From positions 310,001 to 374,000 of the forward strand of contig JAHBXI010000004.1 of NCBI GenBank assembly GCA_019636515.1: a DNA stretch of 64,000 bases. Direction: 5' to 3'. The translations under genes were made by a program, and so were the position numbers. Positions 5,427 to 37,315 of this stretch are shown piece after piece. A model generated the notes under the pieces. The model did not search any database. It saw only the letters and a program-made list of their open reading frames with translations, and had not been told where the DNA came from. The stretch comes from Phycisphaeraceae bacterium. Its GTDB lineage: Bacteria > Planctomycetota > Phycisphaerae > Phycisphaerales > UBA1924. Each line of letters starts with the position of its first letter. Positions within the stretch are counted from its first letter, which is position 1.

Positions 5427-5544
5427 CGACCGACCCGCCACGATCCAAGAACGTCGAGCCCGCGGTGGCGACTCGCGCCATGCGAGAGCGATTCATCAAG
5501 CGGCAGTCCCGCTCTTGTGCAAGCGTGCCGGATCGCGGGGCCGC

Positions 5545-6774: not shown

Positions 6775-6861
6775 TGGCTCATACGATCGGTCCATTCCGA
6801 CGTGGGCCGCCGCCGCAACGGACGCATCCTTCGTTTCTTCACCGGATACCACGCAAGGGAC

Positions 6862-7698: not shown

Positions 7699-7796
7699 CC
7701 CGCGCCCATCCGGTGGGGTCGTCCGTACCCTTCTTCTTGCGCGTCCGCCCGCGGGCGGTTGATCGCTTTCCCGGTCGCACCTCCTGGAGGATCATC

Positions 7797-21437: not shown

Positions 21438-22082
21438 TCAATCGACCTCGTCGAGCCTCCTGGGGACCACCGAGGCGACAAGCCGGAGTTTGTCGGAGGC
21501 AAGCGAGGTGTGGATCTTGCCGGCCTGGTCGTCGTCTGGCTCCACGATCATGTCGATCGTCGCCCGCACGAGGCGCGGACCGGCCTCGTACTCGAGCCGG
21601 AACCCGATGCTCTGAAGATTCGTGATGAGCGGGGATTCGGAGGTGGCCTGGAGTTCATCCCCGACAAAGTCCTGCTGGATGTACCAGAGTTCGTACGGGC
21701 CGCGGTCGGCGGAGAGCGCGTCGCGCCGCTCGACGCGGACGATCCTCCGTTGCCCGGTGTCGTGGTCGCGGAGGGCGGTGAACTCAATGAAGGTCGAGTC
21801 GACGGGGTTTTCGAGGGGGTTGAAAATGTCAATGGGGTAAGGCCCAAACTCGTCGCCGGTACGGATCATGGCGGTGAGCCGGCCCATCACGATGCGCGAG
21901 ACGACGTGGGTCGAGACCGCATCGGTGGTGTGCTTGTAGGCCTTGAACGAGGCGTCGAGCGCGGCCAGGGAGGCCGTCAGGAGCGTGGCGGTGATGGTCA
22001 GGGCCACGAGCATCTCGATGAGGCTGAACCCTCGGCGCCGGGCCGGCGCGGACCAAGAACGGGGCGAAGATGCGTGGTTCAC
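21438..22082 (-). CDS. Type IV prepilin-like protein (PilW/GspJ-like)
   Basis: A 214-residue minor pilin or pseudopilin. The leader ARRRG is followed by the class III prepilin signature FSLIEMLVALTITATLLTASLAAL, including Glu at position +5, and then a helical region (FKAYKHTTDAV) and a beta-rich C-terminal domain (YELWYIQQDFVGDEL, FRLEYEAGPRLVRATIDMI). Length and layout resemble PilW or GspJ. The GTG start at 22082 overlaps the stop of the upstream gene by four bases (GTGA), implying translational coupling, and it is the last gene of the downstream pilus block. Confidence 0.8.
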   Translation of the reverse strand: MNHASSPRSWSAPARRRGFSLIEMLVALTITATLLTASLAALDASFKAYKHTTDAVSTHVVSRIVMGRLTAMIRTGDEFGPYPIDIFNPLENPVDSTFIEFTALRDHDTGQRRIVRVERRDALSADRGPYELWYIQQDFVGDELQATSESPLITNLQSIGFRLEYEAGPRLVRATIDMIVEPDDDQAGKIHTSLASDKLRLVASVVPRRLDEVD

Positions 22083-24970
22083 AGGCGGCCCTCCCGGTAG
22101 GTAGCGGACAGCGGCTGGATGCGCAGCGGAAGTTTGACGCCGTTGGGGAGCACCATGTCGGGATCGAACCGGATGATGATCCGTCCGTACCCGTGGAAGG
22201 GAACCGGCGTCGAGCCCGGCGGCTGGGGCTTGTTGCCGTTGACGTCGGCGAGCCCGTCGCCGTTGGTATCCCAGCCCGCGATGCGGACGCCGCCGATGAT
22301 GGGGAGCGTGTCGGGATCCAGTGACTCTTCGTCGCCGTCCTCGGGACCAAAGTACCCGAGCGACGTGTTGAATCCCGCCGGATTGCCGACCGGATTCCCG
22401 AGGGCATCGACCAGCGGCATCTGCCCGGCGGTCGGGGAGAAGGTCAGCAGCAAGGCCCCGTCGATCGACGTGTTGCCGCGGACATCCATGACGCCGGCGA
22501 TGATCGCGCCCTTGAGCGCGACGTTCTGCCCCGACGGGCTGTTGAAAGTGCCGATGTCCACCGAGTAGTTCGGGAGCATCATCGAACTCTTGGCGATCTC
22601 CGCCAGGTCGGAGGACTTTGGATTCAGGGACGAATCGTCGGGAAACTCGGGGTGCCGCTGGGTGAACCGCGTCTTGCCCGTGAACTGGAGTTTGTTGCGC
22701 ACCTGCATGTACGTCGAGGGGGAGTCGCTGACGATCGACCCCACGAACAGGCAGTCGTGGAAGCGGATGTTGTTCGAGTGGGGCTTGGTGTCGGTGACGC
22801 GCTTGCCCCCGATCACCAGCGGCTCGGGGAGTGATTCGTACCCGTTGATGGAGCCGGTCATGTTGTCCGGGATGTCGGCCTTGTCGAGCGGGCTCGACAA
22901 CGCCATCAGGATCATCTGGTTGGGCGGGATGGCCGACGACGGCAGCATCGTCGGGTAACTCGTCTCCCCGACGCTGTCGCCGTAGACGATCCTCGAGACG
23001 CGGGGCTTGGGACGCCCGCTCCCCGTGTCCAGGTCCATGCGCCCGTACTCCGACCAGAGGAACACCCCGTTGGACGTGGTGGTTCGCACGTACGTCACGC
23101 CCACGAAGGTGCAGTTGCGGAACAGCGCGTTGGTCCCGATGGGGATCCGCACGTCCTTGAAGGTCATGTTCTGGTAGACCGGCCGGTAGTAGTAGTCGGA
23201 GAAGTTCGGGCTGTTGTAGGGCATCTTCTCGAAGTACGCGGTCTCCCAGTTGTCGGGCAGGCCGTCGAGGGTGTTGTCGGGGTCGAGCCGAAGGTACCGG
23301 GGCTGGTCGCTGCTCTCGGGCTTTGTCTCGACGTAGGCGGCCAGGGCACCCGTGGAGATCCCGAGTTGCGCCGCCACCTGGGCGGCGAACGATTCGCCGT
23401 CCGCGGCGGCCTTCAGCGCGGTCATCGACGAACTGAAGTTGCCCACGCCGATGTCGGGCAGCACGTCGTCGGGGGCGTCGTACAGACGGGGCGATTGCCC
23501 GGTCCGGGGCTTGAGGGATCCCCTGAGTCGGGAGTCGTAGTCGGGACGGGCCGCCTTCCACGACGCATCGCTGACCTTGAGCACAAGCCGACCGCGGACT
23601 TTCGCGTACTGGTCGCGGCGGTCAAGCACGCCGTCCCGGTACCCAAGCGCCTGGTCCCGGTTGATGCCCGCGTCCTGGTCGCGGTCGACGAACGCCTCCC
23701 CCTCGTCCCAGATCCCGTTGCCGTTGGTGTCGATGAACCCGTGCAGTCCGTTGCGGTTTCGGTCGGGGTTGGCCGTGTCCAGAAGGTACGCCAGGTCGTC
23801 GTCGACCGGCAGCCCGCCGGAGCCGACAAACTCGGACGTCAGCATCGCGGCGGGGGTGCCGGCTTTCAGCGCGGCCGAGAGCACGACCATCCCGTCCCCG
23901 TTCTTGTCGTAATGCTTCAGGAAGATGTCGAACTCGTCGAGGAAACCGTCCTGCGTGACGTCGGCGAAGGCGCCGTCCATGTGCCCGTCGCCGTCGTAGT
24001 CCTTGTCCAGCGGGATTCCGGCGCCCTCGATCGAGTGACCGATCCGCAGGCGGTTGTCCCCGTCAACGTCGTGGCTCGCCAGGGCATTGAAGAAATCCGT
24101 GAGTTTGCTGTCGAGCGTCGGGTCAAGTCCAAAGAAGTCCGAACGCATCACGATGGGGTCGCCGTGGGTCTGCTCGACATCGGTGTACCGTGCCGCCAGG
24201 TCTCCGACGACCTGCACGTTCTTGCCGACCATGATCCTCGTCGGGGCGTTGATCGCGCTGTTCACGCGCTTGACCAGTCGGAAGTCCTGGGTCACCGTCC
24301 GGGTGATCGGCCGGCTCCCCTTGTAGTCAAAGTCATACCCGGTGGCGATGACACGGACGTCCGTTCCGTTGGCCAGCGGGGCGTACGTGACCGAGAACGC
24401 CAGGGGGCGGCCGTGGTCGCCGCCCGAGTCGGTGTCGAGCCACACGATCGGCGTGTACACCCAGCCATCCTCGGCATAAACCGTCAGGTCGGCGTCGGTG
24501 ACCGCGGCCCCGATCGTCGGGACCGAGACACCCAGGTCGGTCCGGATATTCTGGTCGGCGGCGTGCAGGTTGGCCACCGCCTGGGCGATTCCCGCCGGCG
24601 CCGAGGCCTCGTCGTTTCCGCTGGGCGAGGCGAGCGGCGCCGGATCGTCCGGATCGCTCCACGTACCGTTCCAGATCGCCGTTCCGAAGGCGGCGTTGAT
24701 CTCGCTGTGAGAGACGATGAACCGCCCGGTTGATTCGGCCAGGCGGGCCTGCCCGATGCGAAGCCCCGTCTCGGCCGCCCCCAGCGCCCGCATCACGTGC
24801 AGGTGGGTCGCGGAGTTCCGTATGTTCCCCTTGCTGGCGATCGCCATGGCGGTGGCGAGAGAGCCGAACAGGATGAGGAACATCATCGCCAGGATCGAGG
24901 CGACGCCCCGCCGATCCCCTGATCGCCGACGCCGCCCATGAACGTGCCCTGTGCGTGGATGGCTGGTCAC
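22079..24970 (-). CDS. Large PilX-like pilus-assembly protein with EF-hand-type loops
   Basis: A 963-residue protein, far longer than PilX (about 200). After a basic leader (RRRRSGDRRG) comes a 24-residue hydrophobic N-terminal helix (VASILAMMFLILFGSLATAMAIA) lacking the +5 Glu, then AETGLRIGQ, as in PilX/GspK N termini. The middle third holds several Asp/Asn-rich calcium-loop motifs: DVDGDNRLRIG (about 301), DYDGDGHMDG (324), DKNGDGMVVLS (355), DTNGNGIWDEGE (414), DRDQDAGINRDQ (429), and DTNGDGLADVNG near the C terminus. The last 300 residues are beta-rich, with short right-handed-helix-like repeats (FRNCTFVGVTYV, FHDCLFVGSIV). The GTG start at 24970 has AAGGAG eight bases upstream. Confidence 0.72.
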   Translation of the reverse strand: MTSHPRTGHVHGRRRRSGDRRGVASILAMMFLILFGSLATAMAIASKGNIRNSATHLHVMRALGAAETGLRIGQARLAESTGRFIVSHSEINAAFGTAIWNGTWSDPDDPAPLASPSGNDEASAPAGIAQAVANLHAADQNIRTDLGVSVPTIGAAVTDADLTVYAEDGWVYTPIVWLDTDSGGDHGRPLAFSVTYAPLANGTDVRVIATGYDFDYKGSRPITRTVTQDFRLVKRVNSAINAPTRIMVGKNVQVVGDLAARYTDVEQTHGDPIVMRSDFFGLDPTLDSKLTDFFNALASHDVDGDNRLRIGHSIEGAGIPLDKDYDGDGHMDGAFADVTQDGFLDEFDIFLKHYDKNGDGMVVLSAALKAGTPAAMLTSEFVGSGGLPVDDDLAYLLDTANPDRNRNGLHGFIDTNGNGIWDEGEAFVDRDQDAGINRDQALGYRDGVLDRRDQYAKVRGRLVLKVSDASWKAARPDYDSRLRGSLKPRTGQSPRLYDAPDDVLPDIGVGNFSSSMTALKAAADGESFAAQVAAQLGISTGALAAYVETKPESSDQPRYLRLDPDNTLDGLPDNWETAYFEKMPYNSPNFSDYYYRPVYQNMTFKDVRIPIGTNALFRNCTFVGVTYVRTTTSNGVFLWSEYGRMDLDTGSGRPKPRVSRIVYGDSVGETSYPTMLPSSAIPPNQMILMALSSPLDKADIPDNMTGSINGYESLPEPLVIGGKRVTDTKPHSNNIRFHDCLFVGSIVSDSPSTYMQVRNKLQFTGKTRFTQRHPEFPDDSSLNPKSSDLAEIAKSSMMLPNYSVDIGTFNSPSGQNVALKGAIIAGVMDVRGNTSIDGALLLTFSPTAGQMPLVDALGNPVGNPAGFNTSLGYFGPEDGDEESLDPDTLPIIGGVRIAGWDTNGDGLADVNGNKPQPPGSTPVPFHGYGRIIIRFDPDMVLPNGVKLPLRIQPLSATYREGRL

Positions 24971-25053: not shown

Positions 25054-25737
25054 TCACGGGACGATCCACGAGACGGCGGCGATTTCCCGGGGTTCCGAAT
25101 CGAACATCCCGCGGTAGGTCACGCTCACCGTGACGCGCAGCGGGTACTGATCGACACGCCGGCCCGGGAAGGAGCCCTGCGGATCCTCCTTGAACGCCGG
25201 CGCGCGGACCGTGGAGTAGTTGAACGGGTCCACCTTCTCGACCTTGACCGACTGGGTCCACCCGGCCAGCCCGTAGGGATGTCCCTCCTCGTCGAGCGCC
25301 ACGACGCCGGCGGCGTTGGTCTCGGGGATCAGGTTGCCGTAGGAATCGATCGGGCCGGCGTGGTTGCCCTCGAGCCCGAAGACCGCGCCGTCGAGGTCGT
25401 CGATGTCGTCAAAGTCTCCCGCGTCGATCTCTCCGGCCTCCGGACCCCACCCGCGCAGGACGGGGTTGCCATCCACGGTCTCCAGGTACAGGCCCGTGAC
25501 GGGGTCGTGCCGGGGAAGGCGGCGGCTGAGTTCGCGGATCTCGTTGGCCAGGTACATGGCCCGGGCGGTCTGGCTGGACCACTCGTTGTTCGACATGAAC
25601 GACCGCTGGGCCTCGACGAAGGCCAGCACGCCGACGCCGATGATGATCAGGGCCATGGATGTTTCAAGGAGCGTGAAGCCTCGGCGGCCCGCCCGTCGGG
25701 GGAGCGGTCGTCGGCTGCTGGCGGTTCGTGGCATCAT
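25054..25737 (-). CDS. PilV-like type IV prepilin
   Basis: A 227-residue minor pilin. The basic leader RRAGRRG precedes the class III prepilin signature FTLLETSMALIIIGVGVLAFVEAQ with Glu at +5, typical of PilV/type IV pilus modification proteins; AMYLANEIRELSRRL follows as the N-terminal helix continues. The C-terminal part is polar and beta-like and includes an Asp-rich loop (DAGDFDDIDDLDG) that could bind calcium. It lies between the PilC-like gene (71 bases upstream) and the large PilX-like gene (83 bases downstream), same strand. Two ATG codons open the frame; the first (25737) is used. Confidence 0.82.
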   Translation of the reverse strand: MMPRTASSRRPLPRRAGRRGFTLLETSMALIIIGVGVLAFVEAQRSFMSNNEWSSQTARAMYLANEIRELSRRLPRHDPVTGLYLETVDGNPVLRGWGPEAGEIDAGDFDDIDDLDGAVFGLEGNHAGPIDSYGNLIPETNAAGVVALDEEGHPYGLAGWTQSVKVEKVDPFNYSTVRAPAFKEDPQGSFPGRRVDQYPLRVTVSVTYRGMFDSEPREIAAVSWIVP

Positions 25738-25808: not shown

Positions 25809-27035
25809 TTACTTCACGATCTGACTCATCTTGAAGATGGGAAGGATGATGGCCATGGCGATGAACCCCACGACTGTACCCATCGCGAGGATCATGATGG
25901 GCTCGATCATTCCGGTAACCGCCTTGATCTTGTCCTTGAGTTCCCGGGCGTAGTACGCCGAGATCTCGTCAAGGACCTCGCCGAGTTTGCCGGACTCCTC
26001 GCCCGCGGAGATCATCTGCGTAACGGCCCGGGGGAGCGTGTCGTCCTTCGCCAGGGCCTGCGTGATCTTCTTGCCCTGCTTGACGTTGGTGTAGACCTTC
26101 TTCCACAGGCCCCGGAAGATCGCGTTGCCGGAGATGTCCCCGGTGATCGCCAGCGTATCGAGCATGGGCACGCCCGCGTTGATCAACTGTCCCATCGTCT
26201 GGAGCGACCGGCTGATGTACAGGCACCGGAACATCGACTTGACGACCGGGAAGGTGAGTTTGACACGGTCAACCCAGAACGCCCCGACCTCGGTTCGGGT
26301 GAACGCGTACAACGCCCCGAACACCAGGGCGATCGACCCGACGATGTACACCCAGTGGTTCACGACCCCCGCCGACAGGGACATCAGGAACGTCGTGGCC
26401 CAGGGCAGAACGTCCTCCTTGCCCTCGAAGACCGCCTTGAACTTGGGGAGCACGAACGTGAGCAGAAACACCGTCACCCCCACCGCCAGCGTGCCGATGA
26501 TGCCCGGGTAGATCGCGGCCCCGACCACCATCTTGCGGGTCTCGATGCTCTGGGCGATGTATCCGGCGATGCGGTCGAGCATCTTCGAGAACGCGCCCGA
26601 GACCTCCGAGGCGCGCACCATGTTGATGTAGAGCGGGTTGAAGAGTTTGGGGTGCTTGGCGATGGCCTCGGAAAACTGGCGGCCCGACTCGACATCGTTC
26701 TTGATCGTCGTGATGACCCGCTTGAACCCGCGGTGCTCGGTCTGGTCGGCGATGCCGTCGAGGGCCGCCCGCAGGTTGATGCCCGCGCGGATCATGACCG
26801 CCAACTGGGTCGTGAAATCAAGGACATGCTTCTCCCCCGGCTTGCCGGCGTTGAAGTCGCGGAATCGCTCGATGAGCCCGGCGGAGGAGCCGCCGCCGGC
26901 CAGGGGCGAGAGCGAGAGCACGTGCAGTCCCTGGTTGCGCAGGAGCGCGGCGGCGGTCGCGGCGTTGTCGGCCGCGAGGGTTCCGGACTGGGTCTGGCCC
27001 TGGGGGTTGCGAGCCTGGTAGCGGTAGTTGGCCAT
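25809..27035 (-). CDS. pilC: Type IV pilus assembly platform protein (PilC/GspF family)
   Basis: Inner-membrane platform protein of a type IV pilus, 408 residues. Starts MANYRYQARNPQGQTQSGTL, the usual PilC N terminus, then two GspF domains (about 70-195 and 272-395) with FTTQLAVMIRAGINLRAAL and SRSLQTMGQLINAGVPMLDTL, each followed by the conserved ISAGEESGKLGEVLDEI-like segment, and three membrane helices (IYPGIIGTLAVGVTVFLL, WVYIVGSIALVFGALYA, MILAMGTVVGFIAMAIILPIF). It lies 152 bases after pilT in the same direction, a classic pilT-pilC pairing. A second, divergent family member is at 35820. Confidence 0.95.
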   Translation of the reverse strand: MANYRYQARNPQGQTQSGTLAADNAATAAALLRNQGLHVLSLSPLAGGGSSAGLIERFRDFNAGKPGEKHVLDFTTQLAVMIRAGINLRAALDGIADQTEHRGFKRVITTIKNDVESGRQFSEAIAKHPKLFNPLYINMVRASEVSGAFSKMLDRIAGYIAQSIETRKMVVGAAIYPGIIGTLAVGVTVFLLTFVLPKFKAVFEGKEDVLPWATTFLMSLSAGVVNHWVYIVGSIALVFGALYAFTRTEVGAFWVDRVKLTFPVVKSMFRCLYISRSLQTMGQLINAGVPMLDTLAITGDISGNAIFRGLWKKVYTNVKQGKKITQALAKDDTLPRAVTQMISAGEESGKLGEVLDEISAYYARELKDKIKAVTGMIEPIMILAMGTVVGFIAMAIILPIFKMSQIVK

Positions 27036-27187: not shown

Positions 27188-28243
27188 TCATGCCGCCAGT
27201 TGCCGCTCGAGTTTGTCGGGGTACGCCGAGGAGGCGATGGCGTCCTCGCGTGAGATCATGCCGTTGAAGTAGAGTTCGGCGATGGAGGAATCGAGCGTCG
27301 ACATCCCGATCGCGCGGTTGGTCTCGATCACGTTGGGGATCTCGAACGTCCGGCTCTCTCGGATAAGGTTCCGGACCGCCGGCGTGCAGAGCAGCACCTC
27401 GACGGCCGGCACCATCCCGGGACGGTCGATCCGGCTGAAAAGGGTCTGGCTGATAACCGCCTGCAGCGTGTTGGAGAGCATCGACCGGATCTGGTTCTGC
27501 TGTCCGCCGGGGTACATATCGATGATCCGCTCGACGGTCTGGGAGGCGTTGACGGTGTGGAGCGTTGAGAGCACGAGGTGGCCGGTCTCGGCGGCGGAGA
27601 TCGCCAGGCCGGTCGTCTCCAGGTCGCGCATCTCGCCCACCAGGATGATGTCGGGGTCCTGGCGCAGGGCGTGCTTGAGCCCCGAGGCGAATGTCGGCAT
27701 GTCCGCGCCCAGTTCACGCTGCTCGATCACGCACTGATCGCTCTTGAAGATGTACTCGACCGGGTCCTCCAGGGTGATGATGTGCTTTCGGTATCGCTCG
27801 TTCATCGCCTGGATCATCGCGGCCAGCGTCGTGGATTTGCCCGATCCGGTGTCGCCGGTCACCAGCACCAGCCCACGGGGCAGGTACGTGAGCCTGGCAA
27901 TAACCTCCGGGAGGCTCAACTTCGAGAGGGGCGGGACCTTGGTCTTGATCATGCGCATCGCCATGCCGATCATGCCGCGCTGCATGTGCGCGTTGACGCG
28001 GTAGCGGGCGAGGCTCTCGAACTGGTACGAAAAATCGGAGTCCTTCTGACGGTCGAAGGTGGCGACGGCCTCGGGAGACGCCATCTGCTCGAGGAACTTG
28101 CGAGACTGCTCCTTCGTGATGACCGGGTAGTCCATGTAGGTCATGACCTGATGGACCCGCATCACGGGCGCCTCGCCGCCGATGAGGTGGACGTCGGAGG
28201 CATCGGCATCGATGGCGGCTTTCAGTATGTCGTGCAGGTTCAC
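27188..28243 (-). CDS. pilT: Type IV pilus twitching motility ATPase PilT
   Basis: Hexameric secretion-family ATPase that retracts type IV pili; cytosolic. The 351-residue product has the Walker A GDTGSGKST (from about 130), Asp box TLEDPVEY, Walker B IILVGEMRD, the His box GHLVLSTLHT, and AVRNLIRE near the end, the PilT-specific AIRNLIRE motif needed for retraction, which separates it from PilB/GspE. No PilB gene is in the window. GTG 28243 aligns with the PilT N terminus (MNLHDILKAAIDADASDVHL). It is divergent from the coiled-coil gene at 28476, leaving 232 bases for both promoters. Confidence 0.95.
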   Translation of the reverse strand: MNLHDILKAAIDADASDVHLIGGEAPVMRVHQVMTYMDYPVITKEQSRKFLEQMASPEAVATFDRQKDSDFSYQFESLARYRVNAHMQRGMIGMAMRMIKTKVPPLSKLSLPEVIARLTYLPRGLVLVTGDTGSGKSTTLAAMIQAMNERYRKHIITLEDPVEYIFKSDQCVIEQRELGADMPTFASGLKHALRQDPDIILVGEMRDLETTGLAISAAETGHLVLSTLHTVNASQTVERIIDMYPGGQQNQIRSMLSNTLQAVISQTLFSRIDRPGMVPAVEVLLCTPAVRNLIRESRTFEIPNVIETNRAIGMSTLDSSIAELYFNGMISREDAIASSAYPDKLERQLAA

Positions 28244-28475: not shown

Positions 28476-28943
28476 ATGGACGGCAACCTGACCATCGCGA
28501 CCATCCTGGTTCTCGGATCGACGCTGATCGCGATCCTGTCCCTGGGCAGCCGTGTGACGATGGTCCACGCGCTGCGGACCGCGCAGCGGCGATGCTCGAC
28601 GCTGGCGGATGAACTGGCAAGGGTCCGCAAGTCGTCCGATGAGCGCCAGGCGCACGACGGCGAGACGATCTCGCGCCTGAACAACCGAACCGTGCAGCAG
28701 GGGCAGATGCTGCGCAGCCTCCAGGATGACCTGGACAAGTTCATCACCCAGCACCGCGCGATGGTCGAGGTCCAGGCACGCTCGGATCGGGACGAGGCGG
28801 CCGCGACGGCCGATGCGGCCGCCGCCGAGCAACGCGAGCGGGCGATTCGGGAGCGACTCCGGACGATGCTCAACGAGTTCCGCGCCGTCACCGGCGGCAT
28901 CGCCGAGGCCGAGCCTCACGGCGAACCGGCCAAAGCCGCCTAA
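28476..28943 (+). CDS. Membrane-anchored coiled-coil protein
   Basis: A 155-residue protein with one N-terminal membrane helix (TIATILVLGSTLIAILSL), a heptad-rich coiled coil (about 35-130) with regular Leu/Val spacing (LADELARVRKSSDERQ, MLRSLQDDLDKFITQH) and an Ala/Glu-rich tail. I recognise no family. It is the only plus-strand gene inside the pilus/secretion region, between pilT (divergent) and the TPR lipoprotein (convergent, stop codons overlapping by four bases). Its topology resembles small scaffold proteins, but a role in pilus assembly is only inferred from position. ATG 28476 is the sole plausible start. Confidence 0.65.
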   Translation: MDGNLTIATILVLGSTLIAILSLGSRVTMVHALRTAQRRCSTLADELARVRKSSDERQAHDGETISRLNNRTVQQGQMLRSLQDDLDKFITQHRAMVEVQARSDRDEAAATADAAAAEQRERAIRERLRTMLNEFRAVTGGIAEAEPHGEPAKAA

Positions 28944-29635
28944 CGGCCCTCGCGGCGGGCGGATTCCTTCTCGGCCTTGATCTGCTGCTCGACCCGGACG
29001 CGCTCGCGATGAATCATGGTCCGCCACTTGGAGTCGGGCTCGACCATGGATCCCCGCCGGAGAATCTCAAGTATGTCATCGTCCGCCCGGTTGAGGCGGT
29101 AGGCGCACATCGCCACGCCCCGGATCGACTCCACACGCGTAGGGTCGCGATCCAGGCTCTCCATGTAGTGACGCAGCGCCTGCTCGTCGTACCCGGCCCG
29201 GAAATAGGTCAGGCCCAGACTTTCGAGGGGTCGCGGGTCGGTCGGGGCAAGGTCCGCGGCGGCGCGGAGCGCCCCGGCCGCGGCCATGTAGTCCTTCTGC
29301 TCCATCAGGAGAGTCCCCAGGTTGTGCCAGGCGGCGAAGTTGGATCCGTCCAGCCCAAGCGACCGGCGGTAGAGGTCGATCGCCTCGGGCTGATTGCCCT
29401 TTCGCCGGGCCTGGTCGGCCCTGGTTTGCAGTTCGCGCGCCTGGCGGAGCCGGTCTTCAATCTCGGCGGCGTCGGGCAGGACCGCTTTCCTCGGCGCGGG
29501 CGAGCATCCGGAGAGTCCCGCAACCGCCGCCGACAAGGACGCCGCCGCCACGGTCGCCGACAGAAACACCAGGAAGGAACTCCTGGCCACGACCGGCCGC
29601 CAGGACGCCACGGTGACCATCGTTCGCCTGCTCAT
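28940..29635 (-). CDS. TPR lipoprotein, last gene of the GspF-M-like operon
   Basis: A 231-residue predicted lipoprotein. Signal region (RSSFLVFLSATVAAASLSAAVAG) ends in the lipobox LSGC, followed by about four tetratricopeptide repeats (for example EAIDLYRRSLGLDGSNFAAW, AWHNLGTLLMEQKDYMAAA, DPRPLESLGLTYFRAGYD). PilF/PilW-type TPR lipoproteins assist secretin assembly, which would fit a pilus or T2SS operon; this is inference. Its ATG overlaps the preceding GspM-like stop by four bases (ATGA), indicating coupling. Its stop overlaps the convergent coiled-coil gene's stop (TAG/TAA sharing 28941-28942). Confidence 0.8.
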   Translation of the reverse strand: MSRRTMVTVASWRPVVARSSFLVFLSATVAAASLSAAVAGLSGCSPAPRKAVLPDAAEIEDRLRQARELQTRADQARRKGNQPEAIDLYRRSLGLDGSNFAAWHNLGTLLMEQKDYMAAAGALRAAADLAPTDPRPLESLGLTYFRAGYDEQALRHYMESLDRDPTRVESIRGVAMCAYRLNRADDDILEILRRGSMVEPDSKWRTMIHRERVRVEQQIKAEKESARREGR

Positions 29636-30231
29636 CGGTTCGGTCGCTCCCAGCGTGAGAAGGTCACGTCCATCTGCCACATCCCTTGCATCGTCATGGG
29701 TTGAATCCGCACCGAATAGACCTGAAGGCCCGGGACGTCTTGGCACGCCGACTCAAGCCATCGCACCAGGGCGCCAAGGTCCGGGTCGTTGACCCGCTGG
29801 TAGCGGATTTTCTTCTGGACCGCCCCGGTCCTGGCGTCACGCGTGTCGGACTGCGGCTGCGCGGAAGGAATCTTGTCCCGCACCCCGGCTCGCTCGGCCG
29901 CCGACTCGATACGGCTGTAGAACGTCGTCAGAGGCTCGTTGGGCCGCGTTCCCGAGGAGGACGACGTGTCGGCCTTGAGGCCCTTCCATTCGGCGACCAG
30001 AGCCTTGACGGTTCGGGCCTCATCCTGAGCCGAACGCAGGGCCGACCGGGCCGCGTTGCGGGCGCTCATCGACCACAGCATGGTCACGCACGACACCAGG
30101 AGCAAGGCGGAGGACAGGACCAGGAGGTGCATGGGGCGATTCCGGCGCTCGCCCATCGCCGCCGACGCCGCGAGTTGCTCGCGACGCTCGTCCACGCGGC
30201 TTATCCCCGCCGACGCGGGCATGGAGGTCAT
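29632..30231 (-). CDS. GspM/PilO-like bitopic protein
   Basis: A 199-residue protein with a cytoplasmic N-terminal segment, one membrane helix (HLLVLSSALLLVSCVTMLWSM, about 35-55), a coiled-coil-like stretch (ARSALRSAQDEARTVKALV) and a C-terminal periplasmic domain with a beta-alpha pattern (KIRYQRVNDPDLGALVRWL, LQVYSVRIQPM). This is the layout of GspM and PilO, which form dimers with GspL/PilN in the inner-membrane platform. Sequence identity to known families is low, so the call rests on topology, size and operon position directly after a GspL-like gene, with which it shares an ATGA overlap. Confidence 0.65.
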   Translation of the reverse strand: MTSMPASAGISRVDERREQLAASAAMGERRNRPMHLLVLSSALLLVSCVTMLWSMSARNAARSALRSAQDEARTVKALVAEWKGLKADTSSSSGTRPNEPLTTFYSRIESAAERAGVRDKIPSAQPQSDTRDARTGAVQKKIRYQRVNDPDLGALVRWLESACQDVPGLQVYSVRIQPMTMQGMWQMDVTFSRWERPNR

Positions 30232-31892
30232 GGCGAACCTCCCGGCCCCGGCCCGGAGGGGGTTGCCGCGGCAAACACCCCGGAGTACGTGCAGGGAACC
30301 TTGTCGCTTCCGGGCGTGCGCGTCCCCGGAACAAAGGTCCAGGTCGCGATATCGCTTCCGGCGATCCGTCCCAGCGCCTCGTTGAGCGCTTCGGCGCTCG
30401 CCAGGTCCGGCGCGTTGAGTTGGATGGTCACCGACGACCGCAGTGAATCGAGGCTGATGTTCGTCAGTTCGAAATCGGGCAGTGCCAGGACATGGCTGAG
30501 CGTTTCGAGTTCCTTCAGGATGGGACGGGCCTGCTCGATTCCCACCAGGGGGGCTGTTTCCCTCCGCGCCCGCTCCACCTCCGTCCGCAGTTCCATGACT
30601 TCAAGCCCGGGCATCGGCGGCTTGGCGAGCGTTACCTGCGAGAAAGCCTCCTTCCAGGATCCCTCGACCTGCCTTGCCAGCAAGGAAAGATTCGATGCCT
30701 GTACCCGAAGTCCCCAGGCGAATACCCCGACCCCGGCCGCGGCCGCCGTGATCGCCAGCGATGACCACAGGATCAGCGTGCGGTGAGAACCGCCCGGACG
30801 CGTGGAGAGCGAAACCAGTGATCGGGATGGGTCCATCGCCTCTTCGACCGGGATGATCCCGTCACGATCGTCGAGGTGCTCGGCCACGCGCATAAGCGTC
30901 GCCCCGACCGGGTCGTCGTGAACAGCCAGGTCAACCGTCGCCGTCGGCCAGGCGGCGGCAATGCCTTGCCCGAACCGGGCCGCCCCGATCGAGCCCGGCG
31001 ATGCCTCCTGGGCGGACGACGGCGCGAGCACGATGATTCGCTCGGGGGCCAGGGCGACCTGCGCCGACCAGGCGAGCCAGTCCGAGGCAAGCCTTGCCGC
31101 CGCGTCGGCGGTCAGCAACGGGGTATCCGGTGCCGCGTCCGGAGAATGCCGGCGCGCCGGCATTCGCATGGCGCCGCCCGCCACCAATCGCCCCTCCAGG
31201 GACCATGCCCACAAGACTCGGCCTCCGGGTTCGATCAGGATCATCGCGGTCGGACCGGCCGGCGACTGCAAGACAACCGGGTCGCCGGGATCGGCGCCGC
31301 GAAGACGCGGCACGGAGGGATCCCACGCCCTCGCCATCGCATGCCAGATCGTCACGACCATGCCGCAGCCCACGCCCAGGGCGTCGATCCGGTCGATCAG
31401 AAGCCTGGGAACACCGTCACCAACCGCGAGTATCGCGGATCGGCGTCGGCCGTCGAGCGCGGCGTGTGGCGGAAGCGTGGTCCAACCCAACGGCTGAATC
31501 GTCGAATCCGCGGCGCCGGGGGCATAGTACCCGATCACGCTCAGGCGACCCGACGACGATGCCGGGTCCGATCCATCGCCGCCCGCCTCCGACCCCGAAT
31601 CGGCGTGCTGGCGGACCACGGCCTCGACCAGGGCGGGATCCGACCCCGGTACCGTCGACCACAGGCATACCGACCCATCGGCATCGAGAACAACCAGGTC
31701 CAGTTGGGGAGCGGGGGAGACTCGGGAAGCGATCCAGCGAGCGGCGTCACCGATCGACTCATCGCCCCCCGACTCGGCGGAACCAACCGACACCGCCGAC
31801 CAGCGTTCATCGCCGCGAGGCGTCACCAGTCGCACGCCGGTCAGCCGTGAACCTCGCTCGGCCCGCTCGATGTAGACAACGCGTGTGGTCAC
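30228..31892 (-). CDS. GspL/PilM-PilN-like inner-membrane platform protein
   Basis: A 554-residue protein with a long cytoplasmic N-terminal part with an actin-like alternation of strands (LDLVVLDADGSVCLWSTV, TAMILIEPGGRVLWAWSLEG, ERIIVLAPSS), one membrane helix near residue 395 (TLILWSSLAITAAAAGVGVF), a coiled-coil segment and a C-terminal ferredoxin-like periplasmic domain (FELTNISLDSLRSSVTIQLN). This is the GspL architecture, or a fusion of PilM and PilN. GspL binds the GspE ATPase, whose gene is not here. GTG 31892 is the first start; it lies 25 bases after the GspC-like gene. Its stop overlaps the GspM-like ATG. Confidence 0.65.
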   Translation of the reverse strand: MTTRVVYIERAERGSRLTGVRLVTPRGDERWSAVSVGSAESGGDESIGDAARWIASRVSPAPQLDLVVLDADGSVCLWSTVPGSDPALVEAVVRQHADSGSEAGGDGSDPASSSGRLSVIGYYAPGAADSTIQPLGWTTLPPHAALDGRRRSAILAVGDGVPRLLIDRIDALGVGCGMVVTIWHAMARAWDPSVPRLRGADPGDPVVLQSPAGPTAMILIEPGGRVLWAWSLEGRLVAGGAMRMPARRHSPDAAPDTPLLTADAAARLASDWLAWSAQVALAPERIIVLAPSSAQEASPGSIGAARFGQGIAAAWPTATVDLAVHDDPVGATLMRVAEHLDDRDGIIPVEEAMDPSRSLVSLSTRPGGSHRTLILWSSLAITAAAAGVGVFAWGLRVQASNLSLLARQVEGSWKEAFSQVTLAKPPMPGLEVMELRTEVERARRETAPLVGIEQARPILKELETLSHVLALPDFELTNISLDSLRSSVTIQLNAPDLASAEALNEALGRIAGSDIATWTFVPGTRTPGSDKVPCTYSGVFAAATPSGPGPGGSP

Positions 31893-31917
31893 TCGTGTTC
31901 CTGAAATACCCGAAGGG

Positions 31918-32661
31918 TCATTGCCCCGGGGCCGATCGCTGTTCGCGGTTTCGCCCCCCCCCGATCATGGGGATCGCTTGCAGGTTCGGCCGCCCGCGAC
32001 CTCTCTGCTGCATCTGCTGCAATTGCTGCTGCGCCGCGGCGGCCCGGCCTTCGGCCGCGCTGGAGTCAAACTCGGCACCGGCATGACCGGTGTTCACGGG
32101 TGAACGCCCCTTGACAAGGGTCGTACTCGTGCCGCCGGATCTCTGGTTCCGATGAATCTTTTTCTCGACACCGCCCTCCCGCACGGTCATCGTTTCCTCG
32201 CCAATGGAAACAACCGTCAGCCCCGAGACCTCCTCACCCTCGGCCACGATCCGCTGCCGGCCGCCCATGGCGATCATCGCCAGCAGGCGCCCGGGCTCAC
32301 GGATCACGCCCAGGAACCTCGCCGACTCGGACGGAGCGGGAGCGGGCGGTTCATCGTCGCCCATTTCCACGGGTAACTCGGGCGGCGGCTCAACCTTCGG
32401 GCGGTTGGAGAACTGCATGAAGCGATCGGAAATGCCCGCGGAGTTGACGGGTTGCCCCGGAACAAGCCCTGAAGCGGCCGACACCGACACGGTCGTCGCC
32501 GCCGGCGCGGGCCGATCGTCGTCAAGGGCGGGACGGGCCGTGAACCGCGGGAGGACCAGCATGGCGACGGCCACCGACCCAACCGCCGCCACGGCGAAGG
32601 CGGCCCGCGCGTACCGCGCCCGCGACAGTGCCAGTGATCGCGACATGGTTGTCCGGTTCAT
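31918..32661 (-). CDS. GspC/PilP-like periplasmic link protein
   Basis: A 247-residue bitopic protein: cytoplasmic tail, one membrane helix (AAFAVAAVGSVAVAMLVL, about 20-40), a Pro-rich linker, then a small beta domain (FLGVIREPGRLLAMIAM, IVAEGEEVSGLTVVSIGEE, MTVREGGVEKKIHR). The GE--SG--V--I pattern matches the GspC homology region/PilP fold that links the platform to the secretin. The C terminus is Gln-rich low complexity (AAAAQQQLQQMQQRGRGRP). ATG 32661 has a strong GAGGAGG about eight bases upstream. Sited between GspK-like and GspL-like genes. No secretin gene accompanies it. Confidence 0.65.
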   Translation of the reverse strand: MNRTTMSRSLALSRARYARAAFAVAAVGSVAVAMLVLPRFTARPALDDDRPAPAATTVSVSAASGLVPGQPVNSAGISDRFMQFSNRPKVEPPPELPVEMGDDEPPAPAPSESARFLGVIREPGRLLAMIAMGGRQRIVAEGEEVSGLTVVSIGEETMTVREGGVEKKIHRNQRSGGTSTTLVKGRSPVNTGHAGAEFDSSAAEGRAAAAQQQLQQMQQRGRGRPNLQAIPMIGGGRNREQRSAPGQ

Positions 32662-32720
32662 GAAGTCGCCTCCTCGTCAGTCGCGTCGCCCGGGCGGGAT
32701 ACTCCGCCGTCCGACATAGA

Positions 32721-33635
32721 TTACTCGAGGCCCGAGTCCCGAGCGCGCCGCCATTGCTCGATTGAGCGAGCATCCCCCGACCGGCCAAGATCCACATGGT
32801 TCCATGTCAGGACGTTGATCCGGTTGGCGTATACCGACGCCGATTGCCGAGAATCGGGAAGCAGGAGAAGTCCCCAGTAGCGGGCCCGGGTTGGGACCCG
32901 CGAGAACTGGGGGCCAAGTTCCGCGTCAAGGACCACCTCCCACAACCGCGGAGACGCCGTCAGCAGGCGAAGGAACGGCTCTGTGTGGTCATCGTCCATC
33001 AATCGCAGGATCTCGGGCTTGGAGAGCCCCGCCGGCGAGGGGTTCGGATCGTCGCGCAGAGCCAGGATGGCCTCGATTACTTCCGACGAATTGATCCCCC
33101 CGGTGACGTGATTGACGATGTCCGACAGCGTCTCGATCGGGGAGGTGTAAATGCTCACCGGCACGGGGCCGAACGACCTGGTCCGGAGCACCCTCTCCGT
33201 GGGCCGCAGCGGCCCGACCGCCTCGATCAACGATACGGCGTCATCCCGTTCGGCCTGCGTCAGCCCCGTCATGTCCGTGCGCACGGTCCCCTGAACTTCG
33301 AACGCGTACATCGTGATTCGAGTCCCGTCGGCCAGGGAGATCTCGCCGACCCGGCCGTCGAGGTCGATCGCGCTGCGAAGCGGCATCTGCCGACCGGCCC
33401 CCCGGGAATGCTCCTTCACCCAGGCCTGGAAAATCTCCCGGAGTCCACGCTGGAAATGGAACGAGCGGGTCGCCTCGATTTCCCTGGCCAGTTCGAGAGT
33501 CCGCCCGCTCTGGCGGTCGAGCATGACGGCCAGCAGCAACGTGCCCGCCAGGGCAAGCATCACCACCAGCGGCATCGCGAATCCACGCCTTGAGGGTGAC
33601 CGACGTGAGCGGAACTCGGCGGCGGTAAAGGTCAT
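32721..33635 (-). CDS. GspK-like minor pseudopilin
   Basis: A 304-residue pseudopilin. Leader SRRG, then FAMPLVVMLALAGTLLLAVML as hydrophobic helix; position +5 is Leu, not Glu, which is normal for GspK, the tip protein of the pseudopilus. It continues with REIEATRSFHFQRGLREIFQAW and a helix-hairpin-like segment (TLSDIVNHVTGGINSSEVIEAILALRDD in part) characteristic of GspK. The ATG overlaps the stop of the GspJ-like gene by four bases. In T2SS, GspI, GspJ and GspK form the initiating tip complex, and the three genes are consecutive here. Confidence 0.82.
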   Translation of the reverse strand: MTFTAAEFRSRRSPSRRGFAMPLVVMLALAGTLLLAVMLDRQSGRTLELAREIEATRSFHFQRGLREIFQAWVKEHSRGAGRQMPLRSAIDLDGRVGEISLADGTRITMYAFEVQGTVRTDMTGLTQAERDDAVSLIEAVGPLRPTERVLRTRSFGPVPVSIYTSPIETLSDIVNHVTGGINSSEVIEAILALRDDPNPSPAGLSKPEILRLMDDDHTEPFLRLLTASPRLWEVVLDAELGPQFSRVPTRARYWGLLLLPDSRQSASVYANRINVLTWNHVDLGRSGDARSIEQWRRARDSGLE

Positions 33636-34714
33636 CGGCCGCCCCCTCGGCCGCTCCCACGACCGCCCGGAGGCGGTGTGGGAGGACGTTGCAGGCCGGC
33701 CGGAGGGCGAACCACCGGGCGAGCGCCCGAACCCGCGCCCGGCAGGGCGTCTGGCGTGGATGATTCCTCTTCGCTCGACATGATGAAATCCACTTCAAAG
33801 ATCCAGTTGGCCCACAACCCCGCGGCCGTCTGAACTTCCAACTCGACGTACGCGGGCAGGCCGTTGACGTAGGCGGTCGCGAACTCCGTCTTGCGCACGC
33901 GGTCGTCGAAGAACTGCCACCGAAGGTATGTCAGATCCGTCACGATGAGAGTCGGAGACGGCAAATCATGGTCGCGCACCGAACCCTCGGCGGGGGCCCC
34001 TCCCGTGGCGCCGGGCGGCAGCGGCCGCCACCAGAGCGTCCAGGTCGTGATCGGCCGGACGGGAGAGTCCCCCGGGCCTCGTGCGCCGGGCTCGACGGGC
34101 TGCAATTCAAAGACTCCACGGGACAACCTGGCGCCGGAAATCCTCTCGTCGGTCGGGTCGTCTCGGCCGGCCGATGCCTCGGGGAAGACGGTTCGGGCGT
34201 GATCCCCGGGACCTTGTCGGATGGGGACCGGTGGCCGGCCCAAGACCACTTCCAGGCGCTGAGGCGCCCAGGTCGCGGGGGATGACGATGCATCGACGCC
34301 GGGTCCATCCAGTTTGCGCATCAGGGTCGCGGAGACTCTGCGATCCTCCGTCAGGATCACTCGCGGCGGTTCCGGGGGCGCGTCGGCCGCGGGGTCCGGG
34401 CGCGTCGCGGAACGTCCGGCGGCGCTTGCCCCGGAGTCCTGGCCGGGCCTTGGCGTGGCGGATGCCGGCCTGGGCCGGGGCATCGGCCTCGACGACATCG
34501 CCAGGTTCACGAACGTCCGACGCATGATCGTGTGCAGCCGGTTCAATTGCGACGACTGCTCGGATCGGGCTTTGAGCGTCCGGTCCGCACGATCCAGCGC
34601 GTTGAAGACGCCGGTCGTCGCCATGAGGATGATCCCGCCGATCAAAACGGCCAGCGACACCTCGAGCATGGAGAAGCCCGGACGCCGCCCTTCGATGGTT
34701 GCTCGGCGTGTCAT
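33632..34714 (-). CDS. GspJ-like minor pseudopilin
   Basis: A 360-residue pseudopilin with leader EGRRPG and the signature FSMLEVSLAVLIGGIILMATTGVF, including Glu at +5, then the helix DRADRTLKARSEQSSQLNRL and a beta-rich C-terminal domain (TLIVTDLTYLRWQFFDDR, PAYVELEVQTAAGLWANW). It is longer than typical GspJ (about 200) owing to Pro/Ala-rich insertions (SRPMPRPRPASATPRPG) and a Gly/Pro-rich tail (PTPPPGGRGSGRGGG). Start and stop both overlap neighbours by four bases (ATGA), so GspI-, GspJ- and GspK-like proteins are translationally coupled. Confidence 0.82.
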   Translation of the reverse strand: MTRRATIEGRRPGFSMLEVSLAVLIGGIILMATTGVFNALDRADRTLKARSEQSSQLNRLHTIMRRTFVNLAMSSRPMPRPRPASATPRPGQDSGASAAGRSATRPDPAADAPPEPPRVILTEDRRVSATLMRKLDGPGVDASSSPATWAPQRLEVVLGRPPVPIRQGPGDHARTVFPEASAGRDDPTDERISGARLSRGVFELQPVEPGARGPGDSPVRPITTWTLWWRPLPPGATGGAPAEGSVRDHDLPSPTLIVTDLTYLRWQFFDDRVRKTEFATAYVNGLPAYVELEVQTAAGLWANWIFEVDFIMSSEEESSTPDALPGAGSGARPVVRPPAGLQRPPTPPPGGRGSGRGGGR

Positions 34715-35310
34715 CGGTTGTTTCGCGGGCGTTCGCCCCCTCCATTGGACGCCGGGGCGAGGGGTGGAAGTCCCAGCGGAACACCGGTTGAGGACTCGGT
34801 GATGCGGCGCCTTCCCGCCTCCGTGCCGAGCATGTGCTCGAGGGCGTCGGGATTTCGGAACACGGCCGTGACGTCGTACATGCGCGATACCTCGACGCTG
34901 GGCGTGACGGAGCCCGGAGAGCCGGACGGGTCGTCAAGCCAGACGCGTACGTAGAAAATCCTGAAGTTCTCGAAGCCCCTCTGCGGCCGTCCCTCCACCG
35001 CGGGAGGGGGGCGGGACGGCTGGAATGACAGGTACGATTCCTCCAGACTCCAACGGTACCGGTCGCCGCCGTAGGTGAGAGGTTGCGAGGGGTCCGGCAT
35101 CCCGTCCCGGTCGTCAAGAAACTGCAGAATCAGGCGGTTGGCAAGTTCGCAGCAGGCGAGCGACCGCTGTTCGTGCTTCTGCCTGGAGAGCATCGAATTG
35201 GCGGCGCCCAGCAGGGTGGCGGACAGGATGCCCAGCAGCGCCACCGCGAAGACGATCTCCAGGAACGTCATGCCGCGTCGTGCCGGGATGGTTCGTGTGG
35301 TTGGTTGCAT
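34711..35310 (-). CDS. GspI-like minor pseudopilin
   Basis: A 199-residue pseudopilin. Leader PARRG, then MTFLEIVFAVALLGILSATLLGA with Glu at +5 and Met instead of the usual Phe at +1, followed by the helix MLSRQKHEQRSLACCELANRLI, which resembles GspI. The C-terminal part contains strands (YRWSLEESYLSFQ, FRIFYVRVWLDD). The ATG at 35310 (MQPTTRTIPARRG) gives a leader of ordinary length; an in-frame ATG 60 bases upstream is less likely. It lies 41 bases after the GspG gene and overlaps the GspJ-like start. Confidence 0.83.
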   Translation of the reverse strand: MQPTTRTIPARRGMTFLEIVFAVALLGILSATLLGAANSMLSRQKHEQRSLACCELANRLILQFLDDRDGMPDPSQPLTYGGDRYRWSLEESYLSFQPSRPPPAVEGRPQRGFENFRIFYVRVWLDDPSGSPGSVTPSVEVSRMYDVTAVFRNPDALEHMLGTEAGRRRITESSTGVPLGLPPLAPASNGGGERPRNNR

Positions 35311-35351
35311 CGTGTCGGCGCCAATGGCCCACGGCGGTCCGTGGTCATCGG

Positions 35352-35750
35352 TTACCTGTCCATCGTCCACACGTCGATGTCGTCGGCGGTCTGGAACTTG
35401 GCGTCGGGTCCCGACGAGAGCAGTTCATACGGTCGCCCCTCGCGTCCGACCGGGGCGTAGTACAGGGGCTGCTCGAAACCATCCTTGATCTTCTTGTCCT
35501 CGAGGTACTTGCTCACGACCAGGGTCTGGAGGTCGGGCGGGAAGACCGAGTGGTCGACCTGGTAGGTTTGGAGAATGTTCTTGATGGTGCCCAGCGTCGC
35601 CTTGGTGGCGCGGACCTTGGCCCGCTCTCCCGCGCCCATGAAGTTGTACGCGGCGACGGCCATCAGAACCCCGACGATGGCGAGCACGAGGCTCAGTTCC
35701 AGGAGCGAAAAGCCGCGGCGGGTGTATCTCACGGGTCTGGTCGGGTTCAT
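35352..35750 (-). CDS. gspG: Major pseudopilin GspG
   Basis: Major pseudopilin of a type II secretion system, 132 residues. Leader YTRRG, then FSLLELSLVLAIVGVLMAVAAYNFMG with Glu at +5, and the GspG-specific body: RATKATLGTIKNILQTYQVDHSVFPPDLQTL, where the Y---(H/N)---(F/Y)P pattern is diagnostic, and PDAKFQTADDIDVW near the end, the calcium-binding loop of the major pseudopilin. Length is typical. It sits 69 bases after the GspF gene and 41 before the GspI-like gene, the usual gspF-G-(H)-I-J-K order with no gspH. Confidence 0.9.
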   Translation of the reverse strand: MNPTRPVRYTRRGFSLLELSLVLAIVGVLMAVAAYNFMGAGERAKVRATKATLGTIKNILQTYQVDHSVFPPDLQTLVVSKYLEDKKIKDGFEQPLYYAPVGREGRPYELLSSGPDAKFQTADDIDVWTMDR

Positions 35751-35819
35751 CGAGATCGCTCCTTGGTTGCTTCTCTTTCACCTCGGAAGGCCTTGCCGCC
35801 GGCATCGGGGCCCGGGGGT

Positions 35820-37076
35820 TCACGCGACGGCACTGGCGGTCATGTTCATCAGGGGAATCATCACGGACATCAACAGGGATCCGATCATCAGGAACATGAA
35901 GACAATCAGGATGGGGTCGAGGGCGGCGAGCAGGCGCGTCGATCGACGTTCCACTTCCTCGGCCATGTCCTGTGCCAGCGTGTCAAAGGCCGACTGAAGA
36001 TCGCCCGACCGCTCGGCCGCGATCATCAGGCGCCTGGTCGCCACCGGAAAGGCGTCCACGTCCTGGATCAGGTTCCGGAGCACGCCGCCTTCGATCAGGC
36101 GAGTCCGCAGCCGCGTGATCTGCCCTTTCAGGGTCGGGTGTCCCAGCGCTCCCACCGCCACCCCGAGAGAATCCGCCAGCGTCACCCCGCTGCGTGACAT
36201 CGCCGCCATGACCGTGAAGAACCGGGTCGATTCTTGTGCAAGCACCACGCCCTTGACCATCGGAAGCCGCCGCATCAGGCGTAGCGCCGCGGCCGCGAGC
36301 GACCGACGACAGGCCGTGGCCAGCGCCGCCGCCGCAAGAACTCCCATCGCGAGCCAGCCCATGTTCTCGCGCATCAGGTCGCCCGTTCTCCAGAGAAAGA
36401 CCGTTACGCCGGGAAGTTGGGAGTTGTTGCTCGCCAGCGACGAGGCGATCCTCGGAACGATGACCATGAGCATGAACACCGAAACCGCCAGGCTGATCGT
36501 CATCACGATCGCGGGGTAGATCAAGAGTGTGACCGCCTTGCCGGAAATGGCCAGTTGCCGCCGGGCCGAGGTGGCCAGTTGCCGCGCGGCGCCGGCGAGT
36601 TCCCCCGTCCGCTCCGCCGCTCGATAGACCGCGACGGTGACCTCGTCGAAACTCCCCACGCTCCGGCACGCCTCCGAGAACGACGAACCCGAGGCCACCA
36701 GGTCACGCAGGCGCTCCACCCGAGGTCGAGACGCGGTCGTCACCGATGACGCCGTCACGTCCAGCGCCTCCACCAACGGAACCCCGCGGGACAGCAATTG
36801 CGCCAACTGAAAATGGATCTCCGCCTGATCCTTCAGCGACAGGTCCGATTCTCCTCCGACCCACGAAGGGAGCGACCAGGCCCGGATCGGCACCAGCCGC
36901 CGAGAGCGAAGATGCGCTGCCAGGTCGCGGCGGTCTCGTGCCCGACGGATCCCGAACCGCCGGCTTCCGGACGCCGTCACGGCCATATAGGCGAAGGTGG
37001 TGGCAAGCCCGCCGGCGCCGCGACGTGATTCGATCGCCATCGAGCGGGCCGGGGTTGAGTATCGAAGAAGTGCCAT
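35820..37076 (-). CDS. gspF: Type II secretion platform protein GspF
   Basis: Inner-membrane platform protein of the T2SS-like machine, 418 residues, first gene of the upstream block. The N-terminal region has FAYMAVTASGSRRFG, typical of GspF, followed by two GspF domains (FQLAQLLSRGVPLVEALDV; FFTVMAAMSRSGVTLADSL) and three membrane helices (VTLLIYPAIVMTISLAVSVFML, WLAMGVLAAAALATA, LIVFMFLMIGSLLMSVMIPLM). It differs clearly from the PilC at 25809, so two independent platforms are encoded. The start is unsure: ATG 37076 is used, ATG 37040 and an upstream TTG 37094 are in frame, and none has a clear ribosome binding site. Confidence 0.88.
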   Translation of the reverse strand: MALLRYSTPARSMAIESRRGAGGLATTFAYMAVTASGSRRFGIRRARDRRDLAAHLRSRRLVPIRAWSLPSWVGGESDLSLKDQAEIHFQLAQLLSRGVPLVEALDVTASSVTTASRPRVERLRDLVASGSSFSEACRSVGSFDEVTVAVYRAAERTGELAGAARQLATSARRQLAISGKAVTLLIYPAIVMTISLAVSVFMLMVIVPRIASSLASNNSQLPGVTVFLWRTGDLMRENMGWLAMGVLAAAALATACRRSLAAAALRLMRRLPMVKGVVLAQESTRFFTVMAAMSRSGVTLADSLGVAVGALGHPTLKGQITRLRTRLIEGGVLRNLIQDVDAFPVATRRLMIAAERSGDLQSAFDTLAQDMAEEVERRSTRLLAALDPILIVFMFLMIGSLLMSVMIPLMNMTASAVA

Positions 37077-37315
37077 CAGCGGAAGCGCCGACAATTCCAG
37101 GATCGCCCGCCCACACCCCCCACCCGGACGCCGGACGGGTCGAACACGGCCAATCGGTTCGGGTCAACCCGCAGCGCAAGTCTATCGCGCGGAGGGAGGG
37201 AGCCTCTCCCGCACGAGTGATTCACCACGATCCTCGCGGAAGGCGTTTGATACCCCCCTCAGCCGCGCCCACAATTCACCACGTCTGACGGTAACCCCTT
37301 TCCAGGACGCTCACG

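Follow-up and report, generated by a model that had tools for sequence, protein, structure and literature searches.

Type 4 filaments have tip complexes that are capped by a subunit lacking the glutamate at position +5 (Glu5) (PMC10191384). For Myxococcus, the order has been modelled as PilA, FimU, PilW, PilV, PilX and PilY1, with PilY1 predicted to contribute a strand that completes the PilX sheet (PMC13190605). PilX of Pseudomonas aeruginosa lacks even the insertion of GspK (PMC7248040), and XcpX, a GspK homologue, binds Ca2+ (PMC6211770). PilY1 needs Ca2+, its Ca2+ motif being Dx[DN]xDGxxD (PMC8833165). In ComZ of Thermus thermophilus (6qvi), a beta-solenoid resembling ice-binding proteins is inserted between the penultimate and the last pilin strands (PMC6561018). 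Here we analysed 64,000 nt of DNA (the window, to which all coordinates refer) from a Phycisphaeraceae bacterium (GCA_019636515.1, contig JAHBXI010000004.1, positions 310,001 to 374,000), in which the gene at 22079-24970 encodes a 963-residue protein. We consider it likely that this protein, a minor pilin of the K/PilX position without Glu5, caps the tip of a retractable type IVa pilus and is built on the ComZ plan, with an EF-hand-type Ca2+ module inserted in Phycisphaerales and some sister families.

ComZ is the best structural match, sharing the pilin-like domain with an ice-binding-like beta-solenoid before the last sheet strand. However, ComZ is about 400 residues shorter and belongs to a competence locus, not a PilT-PilC-PilV-PilW one; no EF-hand module has been described in it, and a long loop lies between its two domains where the 963-residue protein has the module. 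PilX (PF14341) and PilK of type IVa pili have in common with this protein the family of the N-terminal helix (orthologues score above the cut-off), the missing Glu5 and the PilV- and PilW-like neighbour genes, but the 963-residue protein adds the solenoid and the EF-hand module. GspK, from the type II secretion system (T2SS), parallels the predicted layout in that it lies at the tip, contains a large inserted domain and binds Ca2+; however, it serves another system and its insertion is a different domain, in which neither a solenoid nor an EF-hand module has been named. PilY1/PilC is a large Ca2+-binding tip protein, as is predicted for the 963-residue protein, and the comparison has a concrete basis because the loop at residues 901-909 fits the PilY1 motif, but PilY1 is not a pilin and carries the beta-propeller PF05567, which Pfam scans found in neither the query nor the 52 homologues aligned with it. 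The EF-hand and dockerin type I modules have the same helix-loop-helix with D-x-[DN]-x-D-G loops, and homologues match their Pfam models; here, however, the Glu of loop 1 comes only at the 15th residue, an insertion interrupts loop 3, and superposition of the set does not extend past one pair. PilB and PilC of Streptococcus sanguinis carry von Willebrand-type and lectin-type domains, unlike those of the 963-residue protein. They nevertheless likewise have a functional domain grafted onto a pilin (PMC10191384). Modular tip pilins are already known, and the feature described here is a real and conserved variant of them, not a new kind.

Protein layout and predicted fold

Reading-frame analysis gives one gene on the minus strand with a GTG start at 24970; a plus-strand reading was ruled out by stops in frame. 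The gene is single-copy, with no paralogue in its own genome. The parts of the protein are listed below, where pLDDT is the predicted local distance difference test score.

22079-24970, minus: candidate tip minor pilin of the PilX/GspK class (K position), 963 residues, GTG start at 24970 (reading frame, relatives, synteny, alignment)
24728-24970, minus: residues 1-81, leader ending in RRG and hydrophobic N-terminal pilin helix (24-81), Leu at +5 (model, alignment)
24245-24517, minus: residues 152-242, pilin beta-sheet (DSSP of the model; match to the S. sanguinis PilA minor pilin over model residues 50-961)
24146-24238, minus: residues 245-275, first solenoid turns (model, structural alignment)
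23573-24145, minus: residues 276-466, inserted EF-hand module (pLDDT 94.3 when modelled alone; Pfam EF-hand in homologues; missing in short orthologues)
23336-23446, minus: residues 509-545, helices joining the EF-hand module and the main solenoid (model)
22151-23299, minus: residues 558-940, main beta-solenoid, similar to the ice-binding proteins 3wp9 and 4nuh (VIA-align Z 12.8 and 13.1 over model residues 236-939)
22091-22132, minus: residues 947-960, C-terminal strand closing the pilin sheet (model, structural alignment)

Architecture, synteny and conservation were all established by computation, and the conservation counts refer to an alignment of 53 proteins (the query and its 52 homologues). 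The N terminus (RRG, then VASILAMMF) has a prepilin leader of class III, after which comes a hydrophobic helix, and the G at -1 is invariant. The +5 residue is Leu in 50 of the 53 proteins, Val or Met in the remainder and Glu in none, which bears out the missing Glu proposed in a preliminary description of this DNA. The likeness to PilX proposed there is supported by the leader and helix, by short orthologues that exceed the PilX_N cut-off, and by the order PilT-PilC-PilV-X-PilW (X being the gene of the 963-residue protein), which is constant in about 100 loci with enough flank. Judged from its sequence, the protein appears to be a PilX-class prepilin without Glu5.

AlphaFold2, run with the 53-sequence alignment, gave a mean pLDDT of 90.6 and a predicted template modelling score of 0.87. 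In the model, a pilin fold is interrupted by an inserted beta-solenoid of the ice-binding-protein type and is completed by its last sheet strand at the C terminus; the EF-hand module forms an insertion of its own close to where the solenoid starts. The structure prediction suggested in the preliminary description thus yields both the EF-hand-type module and, for the beta-helix-like repeats it had noticed, a beta-solenoid head. The insertion point and the ice-binding type of the solenoid are the two features of ComZ, and the predicted model shares both. VIA-align matched ComZ with Z 11.1 over 354 residues at a root-mean-square deviation of 11.9, suggesting that the two domains are differently oriented or that a hinge falls within the aligned region. 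For the minor pilin PilA of S. sanguinis, Z was 7.7 over the range listed above. Meanwhile, ComZ is the best match in the whole PDB for a sequence profile of the short orthologues (E 0.079, not significant), and the PDB yielded nothing significant when searched with the sequence profile of the whole family. The EF-hand module modelled alone has its helices and short strands placed as expected for an EF-hand, and every identifiable Foldseek match among the 50 listed is an EF-hand protein.

The ComZ plan raises the possibility, which we regard as real but not probable, that the 963-residue protein serves a competence pilus as its DNA receptor, the role proposed for ComZ, and is not an adhesin, the EF-hand module being a structural insert. 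The pilin and solenoid plan is that of ComZ, the genome has a ComEC homologue, and the PilT retraction motor adjoins. However, ComEC is widespread (its control was positive in 10 of 14 genomes), no competence gene was recognised within the operon, the sequence link to ComZ is weak (the E of 0.079 given above), and it was not possible to map the lysines through which ComZ binds DNA.

Calcium-type loops and their conservation

The preliminary description had counted at least five Asp/Asn-rich loops in the middle of the protein and one more near the C terminus. We found six D-x-[DNST]-x-[DNS]-[GN]-x-hydrophobic motifs, at residues 301, 324, 337, 355, 403 and 414. Shuffling the whole protein 5000 times gave 0.27 on average and 3 at most, and shuffling the D/N-rich segment alone gave 0.11, so a chance origin was rejected. 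The C-terminal loop is also present, as DTNGDGLAD at residues 901-909. The loops are as follows.

24026-24070, minus: loop 1, residues 301-315, DVDGDNRLRIGHSIE, long variant with Glu at position 15; D301, D305 and E315 invariant (motif scan, alignment)
23975-24001, minus: residues 324-332, DYDGDGHMD, clade-restricted (motif scan)
23927-23962, minus: loop 2, residues 337-348, DVTQDGFLDEFD, canonical 12-residue spacing; D348 invariant, D337, D341 and D345 in 52 of 53 proteins (motif scan, alignment)
23828-23908, minus: loop 3, residues 355-381, DKNGDG...SEF, with an insertion ahead of the Glu (motif scan, alignment)
23738-23764, minus: loop 4, residues 403-411, DRNRNGLHG (motif scan)
23696-23731, minus: loop 5, residues 414-425, DTNGNGIWDEGE, canonical, clade-restricted (motif scan)
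23612-23647, minus: loop 6, residues 442-453, LGYRDGVLDRRD, second half canonical, D453 invariant (motif scan, alignment)
22244-22270, minus: seventh loop, residues 901-909, DTNGDGLAD, fitting the PilY1 consensus Dx[DN]xDGxxD (motif match, alignment)

Loops 301, 337 and 355, together with the DGxxDxxD half-loop at 446-453, are conserved throughout the order, and loops 324, 414 and 901 are confined to nearer relatives (loop 901-909 is present in 34 of 53 proteins, with D at 901, 905 and 909 unvarying where present). The residues D301, D305, R307, E315, D348 and D453 are invariant, and D337, D341, D345, D355 and D359 are at least 90% conserved. The mean conservation of Asp is 0.73 in the module versus 0.43 elsewhere (p 2e-5). 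Loop 2 meets the canonical EF-hand ligand spacing (1, 3, 5, 9, 12) and the remaining loops are variant; the Glu that follows the insertion of loop 3 is at position 12 in shorter homologues (DSNNDGALSESEF). Among the 52 homologues, 26 have one or two matches to the strict PROSITE EF-hand pattern (PS00018). Homologous segments match the Pfam models EF-hand_5 (best 1.3e-9), EF-hand_1 (3.5e-8) and Dockerin_1 (4.9e-8); the EF-hand models are matched by 11-14 of the 53 proteins, though not by the query's own segment. A sequence search with the module returned mostly EF-hand proteins (best E 0.012). The EF-hand type proposed for the loops is supported for the conserved module and the canonical loop 2, but not all loops are canonical, and the strict pattern finds none in the query.

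An alternative in which the module is a mere spacer, and its loops are relics or simple D/N-rich turns without Ca2+ binding, is unlikely. The missing strict match in the query, the unusual spacing of loop 1 and its partial degeneration in several homologues of the f11 family would fit such a spacer, but conservation within the module is highest at the ligand positions, the canonical loop 2 is kept in nearly all proteins, and homologues score with EF-hand and dockerin models.

Distribution, operon and neighbouring genes

Relatives of the 963-residue protein occur in 56 of 61 sampled genomes, the query's included, and also in named Phycisphaerales and Phycisphaeraceae records. The homologue search suggested in the preliminary description thus recovered the same architecture, with the module, across the order and in planctomycete pilus loci. 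In single-sequence searches, a match was found in 95 of 248 genomes of the class sample, and no homologue outside the class at E 1e-5 in the phylum sample of 294 planctomycete genomes. Two records titled Leptolyngbya sp. / Cyanobacteria bacterium (QWIH01000016.1 and RHKP01000020.1) yet carry the Phycisphaerales locus, at 54-57% identity; these names appear wrong or old.

The class-level relatives have about 530-700 residues and no EF-hand loops at the module position, where most of them have a loop of 35-134 residues. In loci L146-L177, the region matching residues 276-466 has repeated ETLDEDGNPMFDEDGNRIYS-type segments instead of the module. The usual spacing to PilC, and in most cases to PilT and PilV, is seen in five short forms (L148, L152-L155), which are therefore probable orthologues; in addition, the profiles of the short and long families align at E 7.7e-58. 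With the PilX_N cut-off at 25.5 bits, the short orthologues L149 and L146 score 29.8 and 27.6, L148 is at the cut-off and the query has no match. In L149 (4286-9045), and also in L147, L151, L157, L160 and L174, two or three tandem PilX-like prepilins lie beside the short orthologue. A FastTree tree was built from 500 columns outside the module; its midpoint root separates the long forms from the short ones, which fits a single gain or a single loss of the module. Module presence was labelled on it by a crude regular expression, which overlooked some members, and the segments were read by eye. As far as the sequences indicate, the EF-hand-type module is present in Phycisphaerales and some sister families, and orthologues of other families of the class are without it. 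Homologues without conserved loops, which the preliminary description had named as evidence against its proposal, occur only in more remote families, and there the module is absent as a whole; within the order, loops 301, 337 and 355 and the half-loop at 446-453 are conserved.

The neighbouring genes of the operon are these.

21438-22088, minus: PilW-like prepilin with Glu5, downstream, overlapping the end of the 963-residue protein's gene by 10 bases (sequence, synteny)
25054-25737, minus: PilV-like prepilin with Glu5, upstream (TIGR02523 1.7e-6, below its cut-off)
25809-27035, minus: PilC/GspF platform protein, upstream (family match)
27188-28243, minus: PilT retraction ATPase, upstream (NCBIfam TIGR01420, 435.8 versus a cut-off of 319.1 bits)

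The gene order holds in L081 too, but there additional genes lie between PilC and PilV (about 4700-8200); by eye, one of them resembles an AAA ATPase (NFKAWKS...GTNSSGKSS) and another a protein of the PIN type, and the two may be a toxin-antitoxin or defence pair inserted in the operon. In L178, a 1207-residue open frame looked like a fusion of PilV and X but was rejected as an out-of-frame open stretch. In a relative with a complete genome (L058), PilM, PilN and PilO lie upstream of the operon. Directly upstream of the pilus operon in the window (28940-37094, minus strand), there is a second, co-directional and T2SS-like cluster with GspF, GspG, two more prepilins, a Glu5-less prepilin at 32721-33635 and GspL/GspM-like proteins. 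An Rfam scan of the window gave no match.

This second cluster bears on whether the 963-residue protein is a GspK-type T2SS pseudopilin, its Ca2+ sites stabilising a secretion pseudopilus unrelated to the pilus. In favour of it, the cluster adjoins the operon, GspK is at the tip and binds Ca2+ (PMC7248040, PMC6211770), and weak GspK matches are found in 11 of 53 homologues (best 5.3e-5). We nevertheless consider this explanation improbable: the operon partner is PilT, which is absent from T2SS, no type II secretion operon surrounds the gene, PilM, PilN and PilO are upstream in the complete relative, the T2SS-like cluster at 28.9-37.1 kb has a Glu5-less prepilin of its own, and short orthologues match PilX_N above the cut-off.

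The 3.4-Mb genome of the query has 50 prepilin N-terminal motifs, 14 matches to secretion or pilus ATPases and five secretins, suggesting that several type 4 filament systems coexist. One secretin domain (contig C2, 439390-439887, locus L191) lies within an open frame of 4753 codons, which may be a giant protein or a mere GC-rich open frame.

A proposed role at the pilus tip

The protein is assigned as a tip cap because Glu5 is missing in all 53 proteins and present in the PilV-like and PilW-like neighbours. Although some minor pilins that have no role in assembly spread along pili (PMC10191384), a non-core minor pilin distributed along the filament is very improbable given the missing Glu5, the gene's place between the PilV-like and PilW-like genes, and the argument made for ComZ that the size of the inserted head excludes packing within the fibre (PMC6561018).

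By analogy with its relatives, the protein would take the tip position and bind Ca2+, which would stiffen it. The 963-residue protein and the PilV-like and PilW-like prepilins would prime the pilus, and the 963-residue protein would remain at the tip. Extracytoplasmic Ca2+ would fold and stiffen the module and thereby fix the solenoid head against the stem; the head may then bind a surface, a polymer or DNA (the ligand is our guess), after which PilT would retract the pilus. Stem and head would thus lie within one chain, and the protein is probably the gripping part of the pilus. A Ca2+-dependent tip would agree with known systems, since GspK binds Ca2+ at the corresponding place of the T2SS and PilY1 needs Ca2+.

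Several results weigh against the assignment as a tip-capping pilin with an EF-hand module. The query itself has no Pfam or NCBIfam family match except one spurious sub-threshold hit (neither EF-hand nor PilX_N), and no match to PS00018. In Foldseek against the PDB, ComZ ranked first at E 0.17, which is individually insignificant; for the module, no match fell below E 0.36, and its superposition covers only about 53 residues (Z 3.2). Moreover, searches of 151 genomes from the order and 294 from the phylum found no PilY1, with the positive control silent in both, so this absence is suggestive only.

PilY1 was not found in the query's own genome either, where among the controls only Haloferax gave a signal and the absence is again suggestive only. 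More speculatively, pili of Phycisphaerae might do without a separate PilY1, one polypeptide serving as PilX and tip effector: the C-terminal strand 947-960 would supply in cis the strand of PilY1, with the head looped out, and the Ca2+-filled EF-hand module at the joint would set the orientation of the head and make grip or retraction Ca2+-dependent. The joining of PilX and PilY1 at the tip, put forward in the preliminary description, is borne out in part: the lack of Glu5 marks a tip cap and loop 901-909 fits the PilY1 motif, but the protein lacks the propeller of PilY1, and its fold comes closest to ComZ, a proposed DNA receptor and not an adhesin.

In the open-licence literature, we found no paper that deals with pilus tips in Phycisphaerae or describes an EF-hand module in a minor pilin. 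Until now represented by one crystal structure, the ComZ plan is here extended to an apparent core tip pilin conserved across an order. In addition, orthologues without the module in the same type of operon form a natural with/without pair, through which the role of Ca2+ at a pilus tip becomes addressable by deletion or graft of a single domain.

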